In this document: one piece after another, positions 599 to 29,431 of the stretch
How positions within the stretch are numbered: the stretch's first letter is position 1
How the letters are laid out: each line of letters starts with the position of its first letter
From: Gammaproteobacteria bacterium
Lineage (GTDB): Bacteria; Pseudomonadota; Gammaproteobacteria; GCA-001735895
Length of the DNA: 33,392 nucleotides
NCBI GenBank assembly: GCA_024229615.1
Contig: JAAESG010000297.1
Location: 1-33,392 of the forward strand
Reading direction: 5' to 3'
The notes under the pieces: generated by a model
What the model was told of the DNA's origin: nothing
What the model saw: the letters and a program-made list of their open reading frames with translations, nothing else
The model's database searches: none
Translations under genes and position numbers: made by a program

Positions 599-3004
599 TT
601 AAAATGGATGGGCAACTTCCTTTGGCCCGGAGTCACTCTGTTCGTCCTGTAACAGTAGTACCAGATCGTCGAAAGCGATTGGTTTACTGAAATAATATCC
701 CTGCATTAAATTGCATCGCTGCCGCTTCAGAAAATCGAGTTGCTCTTTAATTTCCACTCCTTCCGCGACCGTTTTCATGCCCAATTCCCTGGCCATGTTG
801 ATAATGGCGATGGTGATCGACATGTCGTCTTTATCCTCGGGGATGTCCTGGATAAAAGAACGATCGATCTTCAGGGTTGAGATCGGGAAACGCTTGAGAT
901 AGGAGAGCGAGGAATAACCCGTACCGAAATCATCGATCGAGATGGTTACCCCGAGGGCCGATAGTTGGTTCAAAGTCTGATTGACACTATCCAGATCAGA
1001 CATCAGCATGCTTTCGGTAATTTCGAGATCGAGTAGCGCAGGTTTCAAACCGGTTTCATCTAATACCCGGCGAACATTTTCTACCAGGTCAGCCTCCCCA
1101 AGCTGACGAGCAGACAAGTTGACCGATACCTGAATCGAGGGGAATCCCAAATCCTCTAAGCTCTGGTTCTTTTTGCAGGCTTCAGCCAACACCCATTCGC
1201 CGATTGGCATGATTAGACCTGTTTCCTCGGCCAGGGGAATGAATTTATCCGGGGGTATCAATCCTCGATCTGGGTGGTCCCAGCGAATCAGCGCCTCCAT
1301 CCCCACGATTTTGCCATTTTCGATATCGACCTGGGGTTGATAGACCAGCTTAAATTCGTCTTGTGATAACGCCTGTCTTAACTCGTGTTCGAGTTCCAGA
1401 CGTTCTTCTACCTGCGCGGTCATTTTCTGGCTAAAAAACTGATAGTTGTTACGACCTGTGTTCTTGGCGTAATACATGGCAGCATCTGCGTTTTTCATCA
1501 GGTTCTCTACACTTTGATCGTCAAAAGGATGCAGCACGATCCCGATGCTGGTCGTCGTAAAAAAATCCCTGCCGTTGATATGAAAGGGAGCAGAAAACTT
1601 CTCGATGATCTTTTCTGCAACAACCGTGACGTTGTGTATGGTTTTAATATCATGCAGCACCAGGGTGAACTCATCGCCCCCCCATCGAGCTACGGTATCG
1701 CAGGCACGCATACAGCTGCGCAATCGTTCTGCGGCCTCGATTAACAGGCGATCACCCGCGTCGTGGCCCATACTGTCGTTGATTTTCTTGAAATGATCGA
1801 GATCGAGAAACAAGACTGCGATCAGGTGATCATCGCGATCAGCTTCCTTCATGGCTTGTGCAAGCCGATCGACGAACAGGCTGCGGTTTGGCAAATCGGT
1901 AAGATCATCATAGAAAGCAAGATAATTCAGGCGTTCCTCTGTTTTTTTCTGCTCGCTGGTATCAAGTATGATTGCAACGTAAACCGGTGGATCTTCCGTG
2001 GGCGAATATTGAAGTCGTACCTCGACCGGATAGGTGGAGCCGTCTTTCCTCTCGTGTACTGTTTCAAAGTAGACCTGGTCGCGCGTTCCAATACGCAGCG
2101 GTTCGATATAAGCCAGAAACTGATCCCGGGTAATTTCAGGCTTTAAATCCAGCGCCGTCATCTGCAGTAATTCTTCAGTGCTGTAGCCCAGATTGTCACG
2201 CCCACCCCGGTTCACATGTGTGAATTGAAAGTTGTCGGCTGTGAAGATATAGATTTCGTTCGACGACTCATCCAACAGATGCCCGAGTCGGTCCGAAACT
2301 TCGGAGGCCTGTTTATTTTCCTCTCGTTGTCGCGCCATTATCTTTTCTGCATGGGCAACAAATGTATAGAGAATCAGGTATAACAACCCAAAAATTGCCA
2401 ATACGACTGCGATGACCTGGTACTGCCTGTGTTGAATCTCAGAGAGGGTCGCGGTTATATCGGAGTAGATTTCAATCACGCCAACGACTCGATTACCTCG
2501 GCCACCGCGAATAGGCAGGTAGCTGGACAACACTTGCCGTTTAAAGACGTTATTGCCATCAATTTTGCGGAATTTCTCTCTTACGGAAATTTTGCTGATG
2601 ACTTGACCGTTAATCGCCACCTTACTACCGGGGTAATCCGCCGCTTTGACGTCACCGGTTTGCGTAGCGTCCGTAGAAAACAGCGTTTTGCCCCTGGTAT
2701 CGAACATCTTGATTTTGAGTATGGGTAGCTGCTGCACGATTTTTTCAACATCGTTGTGCAAACTTGTCGACAAAGGGTGGTTCACCAGCTGTGATTTCGG
2801 CAACGATTCTGCGTCTTTTAGAAAATCCCGATACTCTGGCCATAATGTGTTGACGATTGTCTGCGTCAGGGCCAGGTAGTTATGTTCCTCCAGCTCGATC
2901 AGCTGCTCGATCGTGGTGTATCGATAGTAAATGCTTAAAGTTACCGCTGAGGCGATAAAAGCGATGAAGCTGACGATGGAGAAGTAATACCTTAGTTTGA
3001 ACAT
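599..3004 (-). CDS. Membrane-anchored PAS-GGDEF-EAL c-di-GMP enzyme
   Basis: An 801-residue protein with the parts for both making and degrading c-di-GMP. It has an N-terminal transmembrane helix (about 7-26), a periplasmic sensor-like region, a second helix (about 194-216), a PAS domain (about 240-350), then GGDEF and EAL domains. The GGDEF motif is intact at 442-446 and is preceded five residues earlier by RACD, an intact RxxD inhibitory I-site. The EAL domain keeps EAL (570-572), the NLSARQ asparagine, LEITES, DDFGTGYSS, the KIDRSF lysine and AEGVE, so phosphodiesterase activity is plausible. The gene diverges from flgG, with a sigma28-like promoter on its strand at 3098-3124, suggesting expression with late flagellar genes. 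The start at 3004 has no strong Shine-Dalgarno. Domain calls are firm; which activity dominates, and the periplasmic signal, are unknown. Confidence 0.93.
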   Translation of the reverse strand: MFKLRYYFSIVSFIAFIASAVTLSIYYRYTTIEQLIELEEHNYLALTQTIVNTLWPEYRDFLKDAESLPKSQLVNHPLSTSLHNDVEKIVQQLPILKIKMFDTRGKTLFSTDATQTGDVKAADYPGSKVAINGQVISKISVREKFRKIDGNNVFKRQVLSSYLPIRGGRGNRVVGVIEIYSDITATLSEIQHRQYQVIAVVLAIFGLLYLILYTFVAHAEKIMARQREENKQASEVSDRLGHLLDESSNEIYIFTADNFQFTHVNRGGRDNLGYSTEELLQMTALDLKPEITRDQFLAYIEPLRIGTRDQVYFETVHERKDGSTYPVEVRLQYSPTEDPPVYVAIILDTSEQKKTEERLNYLAFYDDLTDLPNRSLFVDRLAQAMKEADRDDHLIAVLFLDLDHFKKINDSMGHDAGDRLLIEAAERLRSCMRACDTVARWGGDEFTLVLHDIKTIHNVTVVAEKIIEKFSAPFHINGRDFFTTTSIGIVLHPFDDQSVENLMKNADAAMYYAKNTGRNNYQFFSQKMTAQVEERLELEHELRQALSQDEFKLVYQPQVDIENGKIVGMEALIRWDHPDRGLIPPDKFIPLAEETGLIMPIGEWVLAEACKKNQSLEDLGFPSIQVSVNLSARQLGEADLVENVRRVLDETGLKPALLDLEITESMLMSDLDSVNQTLNQLSALGVTISIDDFGTGYSSLSYLKRFPISTLKIDRSFIQDIPEDKDDMSITIAIINMARELGMKTVAEGVEIKEQLDFLKRQRCNLMQGYYFSKPIAFDDLVLLLQDEQSDSGPKEVAHPF

Positions 3005-4823: not shown

Positions 4824-5927
4824 ATGAAATTCTCGAAAACTATTATCTTGTTGTTTTTAATCGGGTTTATGGGTAATGTCTGGGCCGAGCGCATCAAGGA
4901 TATCACCTCGATCAAGGGCGTTCGCAGCAACCAACTGGTCGGCTATGGCCTGGTCGTGGGTCTCGATGGGTCGGGCGATCAGACTTCACAAACACCTTTC
5001 ACCGTGCAAAGCCTGAAAAGCATGCTCTCCCAGTATGGAATAACCTTACCGCCCGATATCAATCCGCAGGTGAAGAATATTGCCGCGGTGACGGTTCACG
5101 CCGATTTGCCGCCATTCGCGAAAATAGGTCAGACCATCGATGTTACGGTTTCATCGCTCGGAAACGCCAAGAGCTTGCGTGGTGGTAGCCTGATCATGAC
5201 TCCGCTAAAAGGTGCCGATGGCAATATTTATGCACTCGCCCAGGGTAACCTGATCGTTGGAGGCCTCGGTATCGAAGGCGCCGATGGTTCGTCGATTACG
5301 ATCAACGTGCCGAGCGTTGGACGCATTCCTGGCGGTGGCAGCATCGAACGTGAAATTGCCAATCCATTTGCCAGCGGCGACAAGGTCATTCTCAATCTGA
5401 AGCGGGCGGATTTCACTACAGCGAAACGTCTCGCCGACACGATTAACCAGATCCTCGGGCCGAACAATGCGCGTGCCAAGGATAGCGTTACGGTCGCGAT
5501 CAATGCCCCGAAAGATATTTCGCAGCGTGTTGGATTCATGTCTTTCATCGAAAACCTCGAGTTCCAGCCGGGAGAGGCGGCGGCCAAGGTTATCATCAAC
5601 TCACGCTCCGGCACCGTGGTGATCGGCAATCATGTCAAGGTTTATTCAGCCGCGGTATCGCACGGCAACCTGACCGTGACCATCACCAATACCGTCGACG
5701 TAGAACAACCCGGCCCCTTCAGCGGCGGCACCACGACTGAAAATGTACAGTCGGATATCGAGGTGACCGCCGAAGACAACCGCATGTTCCGTTTCCCCAG
5801 AGGGGTTACCCTGAGTGAAATAGTGCGTGCGGTGAATCAGGTAGGTGCTTCGCCCGGTGACCTGGTAGCGATTCTCGAGTCGCTCAAGCAGGTTGGGGCA
5901 CTGAGCGCCGAATTGATCGTGATTTAG
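4824..5927 (+). CDS. flgI: Flagellar P-ring protein FlgI
   Basis: A 367-residue periplasmic protein that assembles the P-ring in the peptidoglycan layer. A Sec signal peptide of about 21 residues ends in VWA before ERIKDI. The mature protein starts with the FlgI hallmark [20 protein letters not shown], continues with GSGDQ and [12 protein letters not shown], and ends with the conserved [21 protein letters not shown]. Length is normal for the family. An AGGAG Shine-Dalgarno overlaps the flgH stop, so translation is probably coupled. Confidence 0.97.
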
Positions 5928-14302: not shown

Positions 14303-14707
14303 ATGAGAAATCTTGCACTTAAAGCGGTCAATCAATACCAGACTGCAGATAACAGTTCGATCCAGTATGCGGATCCCCACGAACTAATTCTGCGCCTGAT
14401 GAATGGCGCCATCGAACGAATCGCCCAGGCCAAAGGTGCGATCCAGTACCAGGATGTCAAGCATAAGGCCGAGTACATCGGCAAGACTATTTCCATCGTC
14501 GGCGGACTGGAAGGATGTCTTGATCATTCTCAAGCTGGGAACCTGTCAGAGAATCTTTCGAGCCTTTACCAGTACATGATTATCTCTCTGACCGAGGCGA
14601 ATATTAACGATGATATAGCCAAGCTCAATGAAATCAGCGATCTTTTACTCGAAATCAAGTCTGCCTGGGAGCAGATTCCGGGACAGAGTCAAAATGTCAG
14701 CAGCTAG
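14303..14707 (+). CDS. fliS: Flagellin export chaperone FliS
   Basis: A 134-residue helical protein of normal FliS length. It carries the family pattern: an N-terminal NQYQTADNSSIQYADPHELI, LILRLMNGAIERIAQAKGAI, then SLYQYMIISLTEANINDD. FliS binds the C-terminal disordered region of flagellin in the cytoplasm, preventing premature polymerisation and delivering it to the export gate. ACGGAGA is well spaced before the ATG. The last 14 bases overlap the next gene. Confidence 0.94.
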   Translation: MRNLALKAVNQYQTADNSSIQYADPHELILRLMNGAIERIAQAKGAIQYQDVKHKAEYIGKTISIVGGLEGCLDHSQAGNLSENLSSLYQYMIISLTEANINDDIAKLNEISDLLLEIKSAWEQIPGQSQNVSS

Positions 14708-15032
14708 CAAATCTCCTGTCATGATGAGTAGGCAACAGGCCCTGGTCGAGGCGATAAATCTGACCGATGAAATTCTCGAGGTATTGAGCAGAGGTGAGTT
14801 TGGTCGCGTTAGCGAGCTCGAGATTGAAAGAAAACCTATTATAGAACAAGCATTTACAAACTCAATTGAACAAGTTGACCTAATAAAGGCATCGCATTTG
14901 AAAGACCTGAACCAACAAGTAGTGGACAGGCTCAATGGCTTCAAGCAATCGATAGTACTGCAACAGGCACGCATTCGAAATGCGTCTAAAGCGACTCGTG
15001 CCTACCTTTGTGTCGACTCAGACCCCAAATAA
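14694..15032 (+). CDS. FliT-like small flagellar chaperone (tentative)
   Basis: A 112-residue, mostly helical protein that I cannot match to a family by motif alone. Its position directly after fliS, its size and its helical, charged character (TDEILEVLSRGEFGRVSELE, then ERKPIIEQAF) fit the FliT / FleP-type proteins found at this place, which act as FliD chaperones or accessory factors. The chosen ATG at 14694 overlaps fliS by 14 bases; internal Met codons at 14721 and 14724 are alternatives. No strong Shine-Dalgarno, so coupling to fliS is likely. Confidence 0.7.
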   Translation: MSAASKSPVMMSRQQALVEAINLTDEILEVLSRGEFGRVSELEIERKPIIEQAFTNSIEQVDLIKASHLKDLNQQVVDRLNGFKQSIVLQQARIRNASKATRAYLCVDSDPK

Positions 15033-17871: not shown

Positions 17872-19200
17872 ATGGTTGATGTACTGGTAGTAGAGGATGA
17901 TGCCGATCTGCGCGAGGCTATCTGTGATACGCTGCAGCTAAATGAAATCAGTTTTCACGACGTTGAAAATGGTCTCGCCGCGGAGAGATTTCTGGCCAAG
18001 CATACGGCATCGCTGGTACTTAGCGACGTACAGATGAGTCCGGGTAACGGCTACGAATTGCTGTCCTCGATTCGCAGCAATCAAATCGATGTGCCGGTTA
18101 TTCTAATGACCGCCTATGGTTCCATTCCACAAGCGGTGGATGCGATTCAGGCAGGCGCGGCCGATTATCTGGTAAAACCCTTCGAAGTATCAAATCTGGT
18201 CAACACTGTACGCAAACAAATCCGTAACCCGATCTGCGCGGATCAGGGTCTGGTAGCGGTGGATGCTGCCAGCCAGGAAACACTGATATTGGCGAGGCGC
18301 GTGGCAAAAACGGATGCGACGGTTTTACTCAATGGTGAAAGTGGCGTGGGTAAAGAAGTTTACTCGCGGTTTATTCATCAACAGTCTGCACGCCACGAAC
18401 AGGCCTTTGTCGCAATCAATTGCGCTGCGATTCCTGAAAACATGCTGGAGGCAGTCTTGTTCGGCTATGAAAAAGGCGCGTTTACCGGTGCCTACAAGGC
18501 TACCATGGGTAAGTTTGAACAAGCCCAGGGCGGTACCCTGCTGCTCGATGAGATAACAGAGATGGACCTTGCCCTGCAGGCCAAGATTCTGCGGGTGTTG
18601 CAGGAAAAGGAAGTAGAGCGTCTCGGCGGCAGCAGTGTAGTCGATTTGGATATTCGTATTATCGCCACCACAAACCGGGATCTACGTCACGAAGTACGTG
18701 AGAAACATTTCCGCGAAGATCTGTTTTACCGGCTCAACGTGTTTCCGATTACGATATCGGCCCTGCGTCAGCGCGCTGACGATATTGTTCCTGTGGCGCG
18801 TAAAATTCTGGCGCAGTACGGTCGTGCAGCAGGGCAAACCATTCAGCTTTCGGATGCAGCTTGCAAGGTCCTGTGCCAGCACAGTTGGCCCGGTAATGTA
18901 CGTGAACTGGATAACGTCATTCAACGGGCGTTGATTCTGAAGCAGGGTAATGACATCCAGCCGCAGGACATTATGCTGGAACAAGGTGGCCTCGAACAAG
19001 CTCCGCTGGAAGCATCACTCGAAGACAACGGTTTGCTGCATTCGGACCTGCGTGATCGTGAAGCAGAGGTGATTCTGGAAACCTTGAGTAGCTTCAGGGG
19101 CAGCCGCAAGAAGACCGCGGAAAAGCTGGGCATCAGCCCTCGCACGCTGCGCTACAAACTCGCCAAAATGCGCGACAGCGGCACTCCCGTTCCCGACTAG
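17872..19200 (+). CDS. fleR: Sigma54-dependent response regulator FleR
   Basis: A 442-residue NtrC-type regulator. The receiver domain (1-115) has the acidic pocket VVEDDAD, phosphoacceptor Asp52 (LVLSDVQMSPGNGYE) and Lys in DYLVKPFE. The AAA+ domain has Walker A GESGVGKE (155-162), GAFTGA and Walker B GTLLLDEITEM. The C-terminal Fis-type HTH is SSFRGSRKKTAEKLGISPRT. FleR acts with FleS to activate the second tier of sigma54-dependent flagellar genes in Pseudomonas-type hierarchies. A GGAG lies 8-12 bases before the ATG. The stop is four bases before a copy of the dispersed repeat. Confidence 0.95.
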   Translation: MVDVLVVEDDADLREAICDTLQLNEISFHDVENGLAAERFLAKHTASLVLSDVQMSPGNGYELLSSIRSNQIDVPVILMTAYGSIPQAVDAIQAGAADYLVKPFEVSNLVNTVRKQIRNPICADQGLVAVDAASQETLILARRVAKTDATVLLNGESGVGKEVYSRFIHQQSARHEQAFVAINCAAIPENMLEAVLFGYEKGAFTGAYKATMGKFEQAQGGTLLLDEITEMDLALQAKILRVLQEKEVERLGGSSVVDLDIRIIATTNRDLRHEVREKHFREDLFYRLNVFPITISALRQRADDIVPVARKILAQYGRAAGQTIQLSDAACKVLCQHSWPGNVRELDNVIQRALILKQGNDIQPQDIMLEQGGLEQAPLEASLEDNGLLHSDLRDREAEVILETLSSFRGSRKKTAEKLGISPRTLRYKLAKMRDSGTPVPD

Positions 19201-19204
19201 TCCA

Positions 19205-19246
19205 GCTAGCCCGCATTTCTCACCACCTTATCTACTGCGACGACGC
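19205..19246. repeat. Copy 2 of the short dispersed repeat, just after fleR
   Basis: GCTAGCCCGCATTTCTCACC, then ACC and, after a few bases, CTACTGCGACGACGC. This is nearly the reverse complement of the right half of the copy at 29364-29431, about 40 bp long with only a small difference after ACCACC. Only one arm is present. Its outer end faces left, toward fleR. Confidence 0.7.
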
Positions 19247-19649
19247 AATGCCGCACCCTGCCTGCATTTGGCTCGGTCAGAGCGCTCGAGATAGTCCTGA
19301 ATCCGTAGGTTTATGACGGCGCATGACGTCACAAAAAATGCGCCTAACAGGCGCGGGCGCCGGATGCTCGTGCACTTACGAGCTTTCCAGCCCTCCATGT
19401 TTAGCCCGATGTTCCCAGGGCGAGAGATCGCCCAGTGAGTCATGGGCTGATCTTCGTTGTATTCTCGTATTTAGTTTTGCTTTGAGTTGGATATGCCAAT
19501 CGGAATTGATGCTGACTAACCACTACGTGAGAAAAGCGTAAGTAATGCGTGATAAATCTCCGGATTTCAGATTTACCTATTTCCATTCGTACTCAACCTC
19601 AGTTCTAATATAATAATGAAGATTCGCGTTATCTGATAAGGATGTAGTT

Positions 19650-19685
19650 AATCAGGGTAAAATAAAGAATCAGGGCAAGATAAAA
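19650..19685. repeat. Tandem 18-bp direct repeat
   Basis: AATCAGGGTAAAATAAAG is followed immediately by AATCAGGGCAAGATAAAA; 15 of 18 bases agree. It lies in the AT-rich non-coding part upstream of the HDOD gene and could be a regulator site pair or paired RNA motifs. Confidence 0.6.
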
Positions 19686-19750
19686 AACCTAAGGTACTCA
19701 TCTCGGATATAAGGTGGCTTATCGCCTTACAAAATATCAAGGGCTAGAAA

Positions 19751-19791
19751 AGGGGCATTCTCTCTACGCGAGTACCCCTGACTGTACTTTT
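19751..19791 (+). terminator. Terminator-like hairpin upstream of the HDOD gene
   Basis: AGGGG (19751-19755) and CCCCT (19775-19779) with inner CTC/GAG pairing, followed a few bases later by CTTTT. It may end transcripts from fleSR or a small RNA, or be part of the HDOD leader. Confidence 0.35.
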
Positions 19792-19874
19792 CGTTATCGG
19801 ATTTTCTCTACTCATTACGTATTCGATAACTTTATAGATTCGCAAGGAATATGGACTTTTGAAGAGCGATTGCA

Positions 19875-21215
19875 ATGCAAAGAATACTGATTGCCAACTG
19901 TGATCAGGCTGAATGCAAACTTATCGAGGAAGCACTCGATAACAAGCATGTTGTGCTGACACTCAGGGACCCCTCGGAATATCAGGTCAGTGAACATGAC
20001 TGCGATGCTATCCTGGTCGACAGCAATTTCACGGAAAATCACGGTTTCGATTTTTTGATGAATATCCTGGTTGATTGCCATGTGCCAACCCTGCTTATTG
20101 TCCCCATAGACCACCCGGAATATGCGCTTGAGGCAGTACGGGCCGGTGCCTATAACTATTTGGTGAAAACTCCAAACTACCTCGAACTATTATCTTTCAC
20201 AATTGAAAAGGCTATCGCCGGTTATCTTGAACATGATGAACTGCTGCGAACAATTAAGGTTCTAAAAAAACGGGTCAAAGAACTTGAGAGCAAAACATCT
20301 CTGGCCTCAAACAAGAATCCCATTGCGCAATCGGTAGACCAGCGAGAGACCTCGTCACCGTCAGCCAATAACCGTACAAGCTTGATTGATGAAATCAAGC
20401 GGCAACTGAGCGAGGGCAAGTTTAATCTGCCTTCCTACCCGGAAATCAACGACAAACTCAAAACGCTGATTGACAAAGGGGCGGGTATGCCTGAAATCTC
20501 AAGGCTAATCAGTGATGATGCCGCCATTTCCACTGAATTAATCAAGATATCCAACTCGGCATTATTTAAAGGCGTTAGTAACAATATCTCAGTGGAACAG
20601 GCCATCAACCGACTGGGGCTGAAAGAGACGGCTATGCATACAGAGATTATCTCCAATCGCGCCCTATACAGTAATTCCAGTAAGAAATTTTCACCCTTGT
20701 TAGCTGACCTCTGGAATCATTCTATGGCCTGTGCCCACACATCGCATATCGTTTCTACTCATCTGGGCATCGGCGAACCGCATGATCTGTTCATGATGGG
20801 ATTGCTACACGATATAGGCGTCTTGCTATTACTGCAAATCATCATTGAAGTCGATAGCCTGGGGGCGATGGAGCAAGAAATTGTGCCGGAGCAGCTACAT
20901 GATTTTCTTACCACTCACCACAATAGCTTCGGAAAAAGCATTTTGACGCGTTGGAAGTTTCCTGAGTCCTATACCGATATTGCGGCATTTCATGACAATC
21001 CTGAAAACAGTGGCAATCAAACCGATGAGTTGATGATTGTCAATTTTTCCAATCTATTGGTCCATACCTTGGGACATGCCCTGAAACCAGAACAGGGAAT
21101 TGAACTGGAGAAACTGGAATCGACAAAACACCTAGGGCTGGATGTGGATAAAATCGAGGCGATCACCGAGGAAGCGATCGTGCTTATTGACGAAGCCAGA
21201 CAGCGCGTCAACTAG
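19875..21215 (+). CDS. Receiver-like plus HDOD domain protein
   Basis: A 446-residue protein inserted between fleR and fliE. Residues 1-120 form a receiver-like fold with a possible phosphoacceptor Asp49 (AILVDSN) and Lys98 (YLVKTPN). The acidic pair expected near residues 8-9 is Asn-Cys and the switch Thr/Ser position looks like Pro, so phosphorylation is doubtful. A charged coil (about 120-145) and linker lead to an HDOD domain (about 178-390; LPSYPEINDKLKTLI, IKISNSALFKG, then LLHDIGVLLL with His312-Asp313). HDOD proteins are signalling adaptors, often without demonstrated enzymatic activity. Context suggests a role in motility control, but that is inference. It is flanked by unusually long non-coding DNA and is more AT-rich by eye than its neighbours, compatible with insertion. 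The Shine-Dalgarno (GAAGAGCG) is modest. Confidence 0.85.
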   Translation: MQRILIANCDQAECKLIEEALDNKHVVLTLRDPSEYQVSEHDCDAILVDSNFTENHGFDFLMNILVDCHVPTLLIVPIDHPEYALEAVRAGAYNYLVKTPNYLELLSFTIEKAIAGYLEHDELLRTIKVLKKRVKELESKTSLASNKNPIAQSVDQRETSSPSANNRTSLIDEIKRQLSEGKFNLPSYPEINDKLKTLIDKGAGMPEISRLISDDAAISTELIKISNSALFKGVSNNISVEQAINRLGLKETAMHTEIISNRALYSNSSKKFSPLLADLWNHSMACAHTSHIVSTHLGIGEPHDLFMMGLLHDIGVLLLLQIIIEVDSLGAMEQEIVPEQLHDFLTTHHNSFGKSILTRWKFPESYTDIAAFHDNPENSGNQTDELMIVNFSNLLVHTLGHALKPEQGIELEKLESTKHLGLDVDKIEAITEEAIVLIDEARQRVN

Positions 21216-21568
21216 TGTTTACCGGTCCTGACAGGGTGACGTGACACGAGGACGGCAGAAACACCTCGGGTGCGGTCGGACCTAGGGCGATCGCCGACGC
21301 TGGCCGAATACTATCTTCGTTTAGCATGGGTTTATCACCTCACAGGAAACATATGCTGCGGTGAGCCAATCCCGAAAAGGAAAATGCTGACTGGAGAACT
21401 GTGTGCGTCGAGTGCGGACCAGTCAACCGCAGGCACAGCTCGGAGGGCGGGGAGGACGTCTGTTCTTGCCGAACCTTATCATCCCTGGAATCGCCTGGTG
21501 CCCGAAACGTCGGACCCTACTACCAGGCCAGGAAGTCAACTCGCAGTAATTACACTTGCACTAAAAGT
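21216..21568. other. Non-coding stretch between the HDOD gene and the fliE promoter
   Basis: No recognisable gene. The first part (21236-21300) is GC-rich with short self-complementary pieces such as GGCGATCGCC. An open frame across 21270-21596 has no familiar motif, would run through the fliE promoter and is treated as chance. No terminator for the HDOD gene was clear. Confidence 0.4.
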
Positions 21569-21584
21569 TGGCTCGATTGTTGCT
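21569..21584 (+). promoter_or_regulatory. Sigma54 promoter for the fliE operon
   Basis: TGGCTCGATTGTTGCT matches TGGCACG-N4-TTGCT with one change. The predicted start is near 21595, leaving a leader of about 113 nt before fliE. Confidence 0.75.
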
Positions 21585-21629
21585 CACTACCAATAAAGGG
21601 CCTGAAAAGGTTTAAAAAACCGACTTAGT

Positions 21630-21643
21630 GTCAAAAAGTTAAC
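21630..21643 (+). promoter_or_regulatory. Possible FleQ-type box in the fliE leader
   Basis: GTCAAAAAGTTAAC matches 10 of 13 fixed positions of the FleQ box as I recall it (GTCANTAAATTGAC). It lies about 35-50 bases downstream of the predicted start. FleQ is known to bind downstream of sigma54 promoters at some P. aeruginosa flagellar operons including fliE, so the position is sensible. Confidence 0.35.
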
Positions 21644-21707
21644 AGTTTTGCTCCTGGTAAGCCATTCAGGGCCAAATCCGTCAAGAAATCGACCGGTAGG
21701 GAATTTC

Positions 21708-22028
21708 ATGATTAATAGCACACAGAACCACTTGTTAAATCAGATGCAGGCGCTCGAATCCCTGGCCAGCGGCCAGGCGGCACAAGTTGAGGTCAAGCCT
21801 GAACAAGGCCCTAATTTTGCCGATTTGATGCAGCAGGCGATCGGTCAGGTCAACGAAACCCAGATGCAGGCCGCCTCGCTCACAAAATCGTTTGAACTCG
21901 GCGAAAACGTCGATCTTTCAGAAGTCATGATTGCGGTGCAAAAATCCCGCGTTTCATTTGAAGCTCTGACCCAGGTACGCAACAAACTCCTGAGCGCATA
22001 TCAGGATGTCATGAACATGTCGGTGTAA
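21708..22028 (+). CDS. fliE: Flagellar hook-basal body protein FliE
   Basis: A 106-residue FliE linking the MS ring to the rod. The C-terminus has the family pattern SFELGENVDLSEVMIAVQKS then VSFEALTQVRNKLLSAYQDV. The ATG at 21708 follows GGTAGGGA; an upstream start at 21648 would add 20 non-conserved residues. It is first of the fliEFGHIJ operon and stops three bases before fliF. Confidence 0.94.
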   Translation: MINSTQNHLLNQMQALESLASGQAAQVEVKPEQGPNFADLMQQAIGQVNETQMQAASLTKSFELGENVDLSEVMIAVQKSRVSFEALTQVRNKLLSAYQDVMNMSV

Positions 22029-29363: not shown

Positions 29364-29431
29364 AGCCCGCATTTCTCACCACCTTTTGTAGCGTCGTCGC
29401 AGTAGAAGGGTGGTGAGAAATGCGGGCTAGC
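29364..29431. mobile_element. Palindromic MITE-like repeat (copy 3)
   Basis: AGCCCGCATTTCTCACCACC (29364-29383) and GGTGGTGAGAAATGCGGGCT (29409-29428) are perfect 20-bp inverted repeats around a 25-base centre that includes CGTCGTCGCAGTAG. Single arms of the same sequence occur at 484-506 and 19205-19246. Short length, no coding capacity, perfect terminal inverted repeats and dispersed copies suggest a non-autonomous transposable element or an extragenic palindrome. No target-site duplication was identified. It lies between the fliK terminator and the fliL promoter. Confidence 0.6.

Follow-up and report, generated by a model that had tools for sequence, protein, structure and literature searches.

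How did a gene for an HDOD signalling protein come to stand between fleR and fliE in a FleQ-type flagellar cluster, and does it take any part in motility there? The locus belongs to a contig of 33,392 nucleotides (JAAESG010000297.1, assembly GCA_024229615.1), which was analysed along its whole length and is called here the window. The data are best explained by an HDOD signalling protein that was acquired laterally, works independently of phosphorylation and is encoded where insertions are tolerated. In this explanation, which we regard as probable, the segment 19201-21562 would be a recent insertion bearing one intact foreign HDOD signalling gene, perhaps co-opted by its host or merely tolerated.

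The gene and its surroundings

As a first-pass annotation of the window had proposed, an HDOD gene with a receiver-like N-terminus lies between fleR and fliE, as an intact reading frame of 446 codons (Table 1). The HDOD part matches PF08668 along the entire profile (1-196 of 196) with 113.8 bits, against a cut-off of 22.9, and the N-terminal match to Response_reg (PF00072) reaches 26.6 bits, below the cut-off of 30.2. The flanks of the gene, estimated earlier at about 670 and 490 bp, measure 674 bp on the fleR side and 492 bp on the fliE side, and are the two longest of the 25 intergenic gaps in the window's gene list. The accompanying statement that genes of the cluster mostly overlap or lie close together is roughly right, 12 of the 25 gaps being of 12 bp or less.

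Table 1. Features of the fleR-fliE region, in window coordinates
Feature	Position	Strand	Remarks
fleR-like sigma-54 response regulator (left neighbour)	17872..19200	+	Pfam Sigma54_activat, Response_reg, HTH_8
Inserted segment, not in relatives	19201..21562	.	Congener fleR-fliE gap homology restarts at 21563
Left half of dispersed MITE-like repeat, right end missing	19205..19328	+	Terminal repeat CTAGCCCGCATTTCTCACCACC
Decayed 3' end of IS3-like transposase gene	19380..19488	-	86% identity to G000:C437:16188-16296
Spacer upstream of HDOD gene	19491..19874	.	AT-rich, 38% GC
Degenerate receiver-linker-HDOD protein	19875..21215	+	446 aa
Degenerate receiver domain	19887..20183	+	Residues 5-103, Pfam Response_reg
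HDOD domain	20427..21002	+	Residues 185-376, Pfam E 9.4e-33
Spacer, single copy in genome	21216..21562	.	GC-rich (57%)
37-bp fragment of congener repeat	21480..21516	-	Also in G002 fleR-fliE gap, 89%
Sigma-54-type promoter of fliE (predicted)	21568..21584	+	
FleQ-box-like site 1, fliE leader	21630..21643	+	Consensus match
FleQ-box-like site 2, fliE leader	21680..21693	+	Consensus match
fliE (right neighbour)	21708..22028	+	Pfam FliE E 1.5e-28; ATG 21708

Two compositional checks had been suggested. Base composition set the gene apart, its GC of 0.457 being the lowest among 26 genes; codon usage did not, since the gene is no outlier among those of the window, and codon usage was dropped as proof of transfer. 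The fleR-like product is 71-86% identical to its congener versions. The whole genome gives 16 HDOD matches, and the four other HDOD proteins of the same genome checked by Pfam show no receiver match. The AlphaFold model of the protein, predicted from the single sequence, has a mean pLDDT of 37.9, too low for it to be of use. An RNA element at the locus was considered and rejected, the two Rfam matches both being sub-threshold (E 1.2 and 2.2).

Two further genes of the window may be mentioned. A GGDEF-EAL protein resembling the phosphodiesterase DibA is encoded at 599-3004 on the reverse strand, divergently from the flg genes, so that a c-di-GMP enzyme lies near the flagellar cluster. Between fliS and fleQ, and overlapping the former, lies a reading frame of 134 aa (14628-15032) for which Pfam gives no match; by position it could be fliT-like.

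Absence of the insert from relatives

A search for FleR covered 57 genomes, counting that of the window; 33 matched at E<=1e-100, and 30 fleR loci were retrieved, of which 29 belong to relatives. Among the latter, 20 have fliE after fleR with no HDOD gene between: 14 from congeners (gaps of 151-433 bp) and 6 from other genomes of the same class (gaps of 11-207 bp). The gene is likewise missing from this junction in congener G029, which has a transposase between fleR and fliE, bringing the total to 21 of 29. In the remaining eight loci the contig ends (L075, L077, L086, L092, L096) or other genes follow downstream (L089-L091). When the insert was compared with 20 gap sequences, a stretch of 145 bp from 21563 on was found to be 78% identical to locus L071, and it is because congener homology restarts at this position that we delimit the insert as 19201-21562. 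No gene-length DNA match to it exists in the 56 other genomes.

The search was extended at the protein level to samples that overlap one another, at most four candidates per genome being scored in the class and phylum samples. None of 40 other genomes of the family encodes a full-length homologue, the best match (E 5.6e-24) covering the HDOD part only. Of the 368 other genomes in the class sample, 17 match at E<=1e-25, with the HDOD part only, the best of them at E 2.1e-39 over residues 154-400; one of these 17 (L104) aligns by tblastn over residues 1-442 at 23% identity. In the phylum sample, 0 of 397 other genomes match at E<=1e-30.

These results bear on the possibility that the HDOD gene is ancestral to the flagellar cluster and was lost from all sampled relatives. 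Nothing speaks for it directly, the ancestral gene order flanking the gene being the one circumstance in its favour. Against it, the gene is present at none of the 21 resolved fleR-fliE junctions of relatives, the congener gaps hold no remnant of it, and the protein falls in trees within another order (see below). The finding that would have spoken for it, an HDOD gene at this place throughout the order, was made neither in the family nor in the same-class sample. Given the empty junctions, the lack of a full-length homologue in the family and the lack of a match at E<=1e-30 in the phylum sample, an ancestral component was ruled out, and we find this explanation hardly credible.

Mobile DNA at the junction

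The left flank opens, as had been noticed, with a copy of a mobile-type repeat. Its first stretch (19205-19227) is found again in the window at 484-508, 29364-29390 and 29409-29431, and a 19-base piece of it has 55 exact copies in the genome, against 0 for a reversed control. The repeat end sequence is present in 3 of 56 other genomes, all of them congeners (control matches: 0), and the whole left flank gives at least 54 match rows in the genome, itself included, among the best 40 of 156 candidates. Many copies have inverted ends about 145-250 bp apart; the family thus shows the inverted ends and the many copies of a MITE, of which the copy at 19205 is one half. Next to it lies the frameshifted remnant of an IS3-like transposase gene; the peptide of the related copy on contig C437 matches Pfam rve_3 (E 7e-10).

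Elsewhere in the window, the repeat copy at 29364-29431 is a short one of two arms, 19 nt apart, and accounts partly for the 381-bp gap between fliK and fliL; downstream of it, in front of fliL, comes a sigma-54-type site (29603). Near the window's left edge, at 484-508, the MITE-like repeat is represented by one end.

The junction has received other mobile elements in the genus. In congener G029 the transposase between fleR and fliE matches DDE_Tnp_1 (E 2.3e-25). In congener G011 fleR is immediately followed by a Y1_Tnp fragment (E 3.2e-5), fliE lying past the contig end. The fleR-fliE gap is a recurrent landing site for mobile DNA in the genus. As to the form of these sequences, the G029 transposase is an open IS4-type frame (L118, 3225-4691), and the gap of G001 (L081) contains, by eye, a near-perfect long hairpin that starts with GGGGACACAATACTTGATTCAC.

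A repeat in many copies may also mislead an assembler, and the contig could be a chimera joined through it: the assembly consists of 735 contigs, and the left junction falls at a copy of the repeat. Nevertheless, fleR and fliE, adjacent in relatives, here flank the insert, and since these neighbours bracket it on both sides one false join would not suffice to produce the arrangement. Furthermore, the HDOD gene is joined to fliE by DNA that has no other copies in the genome. An artefact of assembly is in our view very unlikely.

The fliE control region is intact

Both flanks had been described as long and non-coding. Their length is as stated, whereas the right one is not free of function, for its last 145 bp would be the promoter and leader of fliE. 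Immediately past the right edge of the insert, TTGGCTCGATTGTTGCT at 21568 is an exact match to the sigma-54 pattern, for which, with one mismatch allowed, the window holds 3 matches against 0.24 expected. Of the 14 congener gaps, 13 have a sigma-54-type site 131-144 bp upstream of fliE, the distance in the window being 139 bp; none was found in the 6 fleR-fliE gaps from outside the family. Two FleQ-box matches within two mismatches occur in the window (0.27 expected), both in the fliE leader, and at least two such matches were obtained in 4 of 100 shuffles. The consensus used was proposed for Pseudomonas putida by authors who, in the excerpt relied on here, doubt its general use (PMC6120874). 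Because the sigma-54-type site and the FleQ-box-like leader sites are present, the right flank is considered to carry, as judged from these motifs, an undamaged fliE control region of conserved promoter and leader (21563-21707). This flank gave no plasmid match.

For the HDOD gene itself the control region formerly proposed was not borne out: no sigma-70-like site was recognised upstream of it on the forward strand, and scans for sigma-54 and sigma-28 sites gave none. The recognisable control elements of the flanks belong to fliE.

It is here that a second explanation deserves close attention, which shares the acquisition with the best explanation and differs from it on function: the gene would be incidental, settled at a tolerated site with no flagellar tie, and at most cutting read-through from fleSR into fliE. 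Unrelated mobile DNA at the congener junction (the IS4-type element of G029, the Y1-type fragment of G011, a repeat in G002) speaks for this explanation, as do the palindromic repeat-like stretches seen by eye in the gaps of G020, G007 and G001, the intact fliE promoter downstream of the insert and the lack of a recognised promoter for the HDOD gene. However, the gene is intact next to decayed debris, and according to passages of several reports (PMC6543031, PMC11813219, PMC11004494, PMC4114195) there are HDOD proteins that alter motility in other bacteria. We give this incidental status only slightly less than an even chance.

A degenerate receiver

In the alignment, the HDOD protein has N8 and C9 at the site of the acidic pair of canonical receivers such as FleR, and V76 at that of the conserved Thr, while D49 and K98 are kept. 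Positions 8/9, 49, 76 and 98 presumably have the functional roles that we assign to them from the alignment. Measured against the residues that characterise PF00072 (acidic pair, acceptor Asp, Thr/Ser and Lys), the protein thus lacks the acidic pair and the Thr. The acidic pair, which in receivers is metal-binding, is also absent from 11 other aligned family members (L149, L154-L163). Among the kin, the Response_reg cut-off is passed by L140 (38.8 bits) and L154 (34.1 bits) and failed by L157, L158, L159 and L162. Since the receiver is devoid of the metal-binding pair, switching by phosphorylation appears unlikely.

Origin of the gene

A first pattern scan of genome contigs yielded no homologue; a second one, built from an alignment with a same-class relative, gave L140, from a Desulfobacterales MAG (genome G784), which matches the window protein over its entire length (35%, 159 of 457 columns, residues 1-443). 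Searched against 389 genomes of its order, its own included, the L140 protein finds matches at E<=1e-40 in 37, and 10 genomes, again with its own, have full-length members. When the window protein was used as query against the 20 loci of that search (L149, L154-L172), 11 were matched from its first residue to residue 423 or farther, at 31-37% identity.

In the trees, the window protein falls within a 14-row clade (100/100) and, inside G784's order too, a 7-row clade (99/99) made up of itself, L149 (the gene of L140), L154, L155, L156, L157 and L162. L104, L141 and L150 were absent from the first tree and added to a later one; L104 has a canonical-looking receiver and stands outside the clade of the window protein. 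A topology uniting the window protein with L100 and L142, rows from the same class or from Ectothiorhodospiraceae, was rejected (p 1.9e-6), as was the same grouping plus L104 (p 8.7e-5). A tree of the HDOD domain only places it in a 20-row group of the same order (98/94), beside L166, which leaves the precise sister row uncertain. The branch of the window row is long (1.15-1.27) and, together with the identity of 31-37%, suggests that the donor is unsampled or that the protein evolves fast. The host genome, in turn, looks gammaproteobacterial from its RpoD, which aligns end to end with that of Escherichia coli (774 bits); the transfer would have run towards the window's lineage.

Two other sources were examined and discarded: among plasmid records five match the protein, over its HDOD part and with at most 27% identity; 50,697 phage records yielded no match, and the pattern scan gave no viral contig.

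The absence from relatives, the conserved junction without the gene, the mobile debris and the tree position in a distant order together make a strong case, at the sequence level, for acquisition of the HDOD gene from elsewhere.

Linkage with PilZ genes

A PilZ gene lies directly upstream in 6 of 11 loci (L149, L154, L155, L156, L157, L162), which are all the other rows of the 7-row clade; it ends about 10-55 bp before the HDOD gene (Pfam E 4e-16 to 8e-12). At L158 the HDOD gene is preceded by CheR and CheB genes, and at L159, L160, L161 and L163 no PilZ-like neighbour appears in the list of open reading frames, part of which was run against Pfam. A narrow literature search found no description of the PilZ-HDOD pair. 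In L140, a stretch that by eye resembles a tRNA precedes the pair (about 5409-5482).

The window protein belongs to this PilZ-linked family: like L140, L154-L157 and L162, it is homologous over its full length, co-linear and lacking the acidic pair, and it shares their 99/99 clade, a placement that the HDOD-only tree gives less exactly. Unlike these kin, it is located in a flagellar cluster and has no PilZ neighbour, neither a PilZ gene nor a remnant of one being found in the window flanks. As PilZ is a c-di-GMP receptor and its gene precedes the HDOD gene in the closest relatives, c-di-GMP was probably the ancestral input; with no PilZ neighbour in the window, a signal of this kind would here have to come through one of the host's own proteins.

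Comparison with known systems

Passages of two reports describe GsmR of Xanthomonas campestris, an HDOD response regulator that affects flagellum synthesis genes (PMC4114195, PMC6543031). It is likened to the window protein by description, both being of response-regulator type with HDOD output; the link to flagellar genes is that of GsmR, and the window receiver lacks the acidic pair. SadB of Pseudomonas, a YbaK-HDOD protein, is stated in a passage of PMC6543031 to bind c-di-GMP and to act on flagellar control. The HDOD domain is common to SadB and the window protein, the c-di-GMP-linked control of motility being that of SadB, whose N-terminal domain is YbaK-like where the window protein has a receiver. 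In sulfate reducers, regulators of the DVU0330 type share the receiver-HDOD architecture, again as compared by description, and the HDOD of DVU0330 has no activity on c-di-GMP according to the portion of PMC4114195 used here. By analogy with GsmR and SadB, a role in motility is plausible. In the window, however, the one tie of the gene to flagella is its position, which by itself would not mark the protein as a motility regulator.

Meaning of the insertion

We propose that the insertion took place in the lineage of the species, splitting the short stretch that runs from fleR to the sigma-54 promoter of fliE, and would have brought a degenerate receiver-linker-HDOD gene whose family is otherwise found in the order of the Desulfobacterales genome. 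The protein is unlikely to be switched by phosphorylation and is most likely an adaptor controlled by a partner, with an output through the HDOD domain, by protein-protein contact, and an ancestral input passed on by its PilZ partner. In the new host, it would then have been either co-opted into c-di-GMP or motility control or simply tolerated at a harmless site.

A bolder version, which we consider unlikely though worth stating, supposes that a two-gene c-di-GMP module exists in bacteria of the Desulfobacterales type, composed of a PilZ receptor and a phosphorylation-blind receiver-HDOD adaptor, and that its HDOD half, captured between fleR and fliE of a FleQ-type cluster, now couples flagellar expression to a PilZ or c-di-GMP signal of the host.

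New here are the non-canonical receiver of this receiver-HDOD protein and the genomic context in which it is found. HDOD proteins recur in the control of motility; a small family with a receiver that would not be phosphorylated in the usual manner, encoded adjacent to PilZ genes, offers a direct and testable guess at their input. In turn, the fleR-fliE gap may let a regulator enter a flagellar cluster while leaving the promoter of fliE unbroken.
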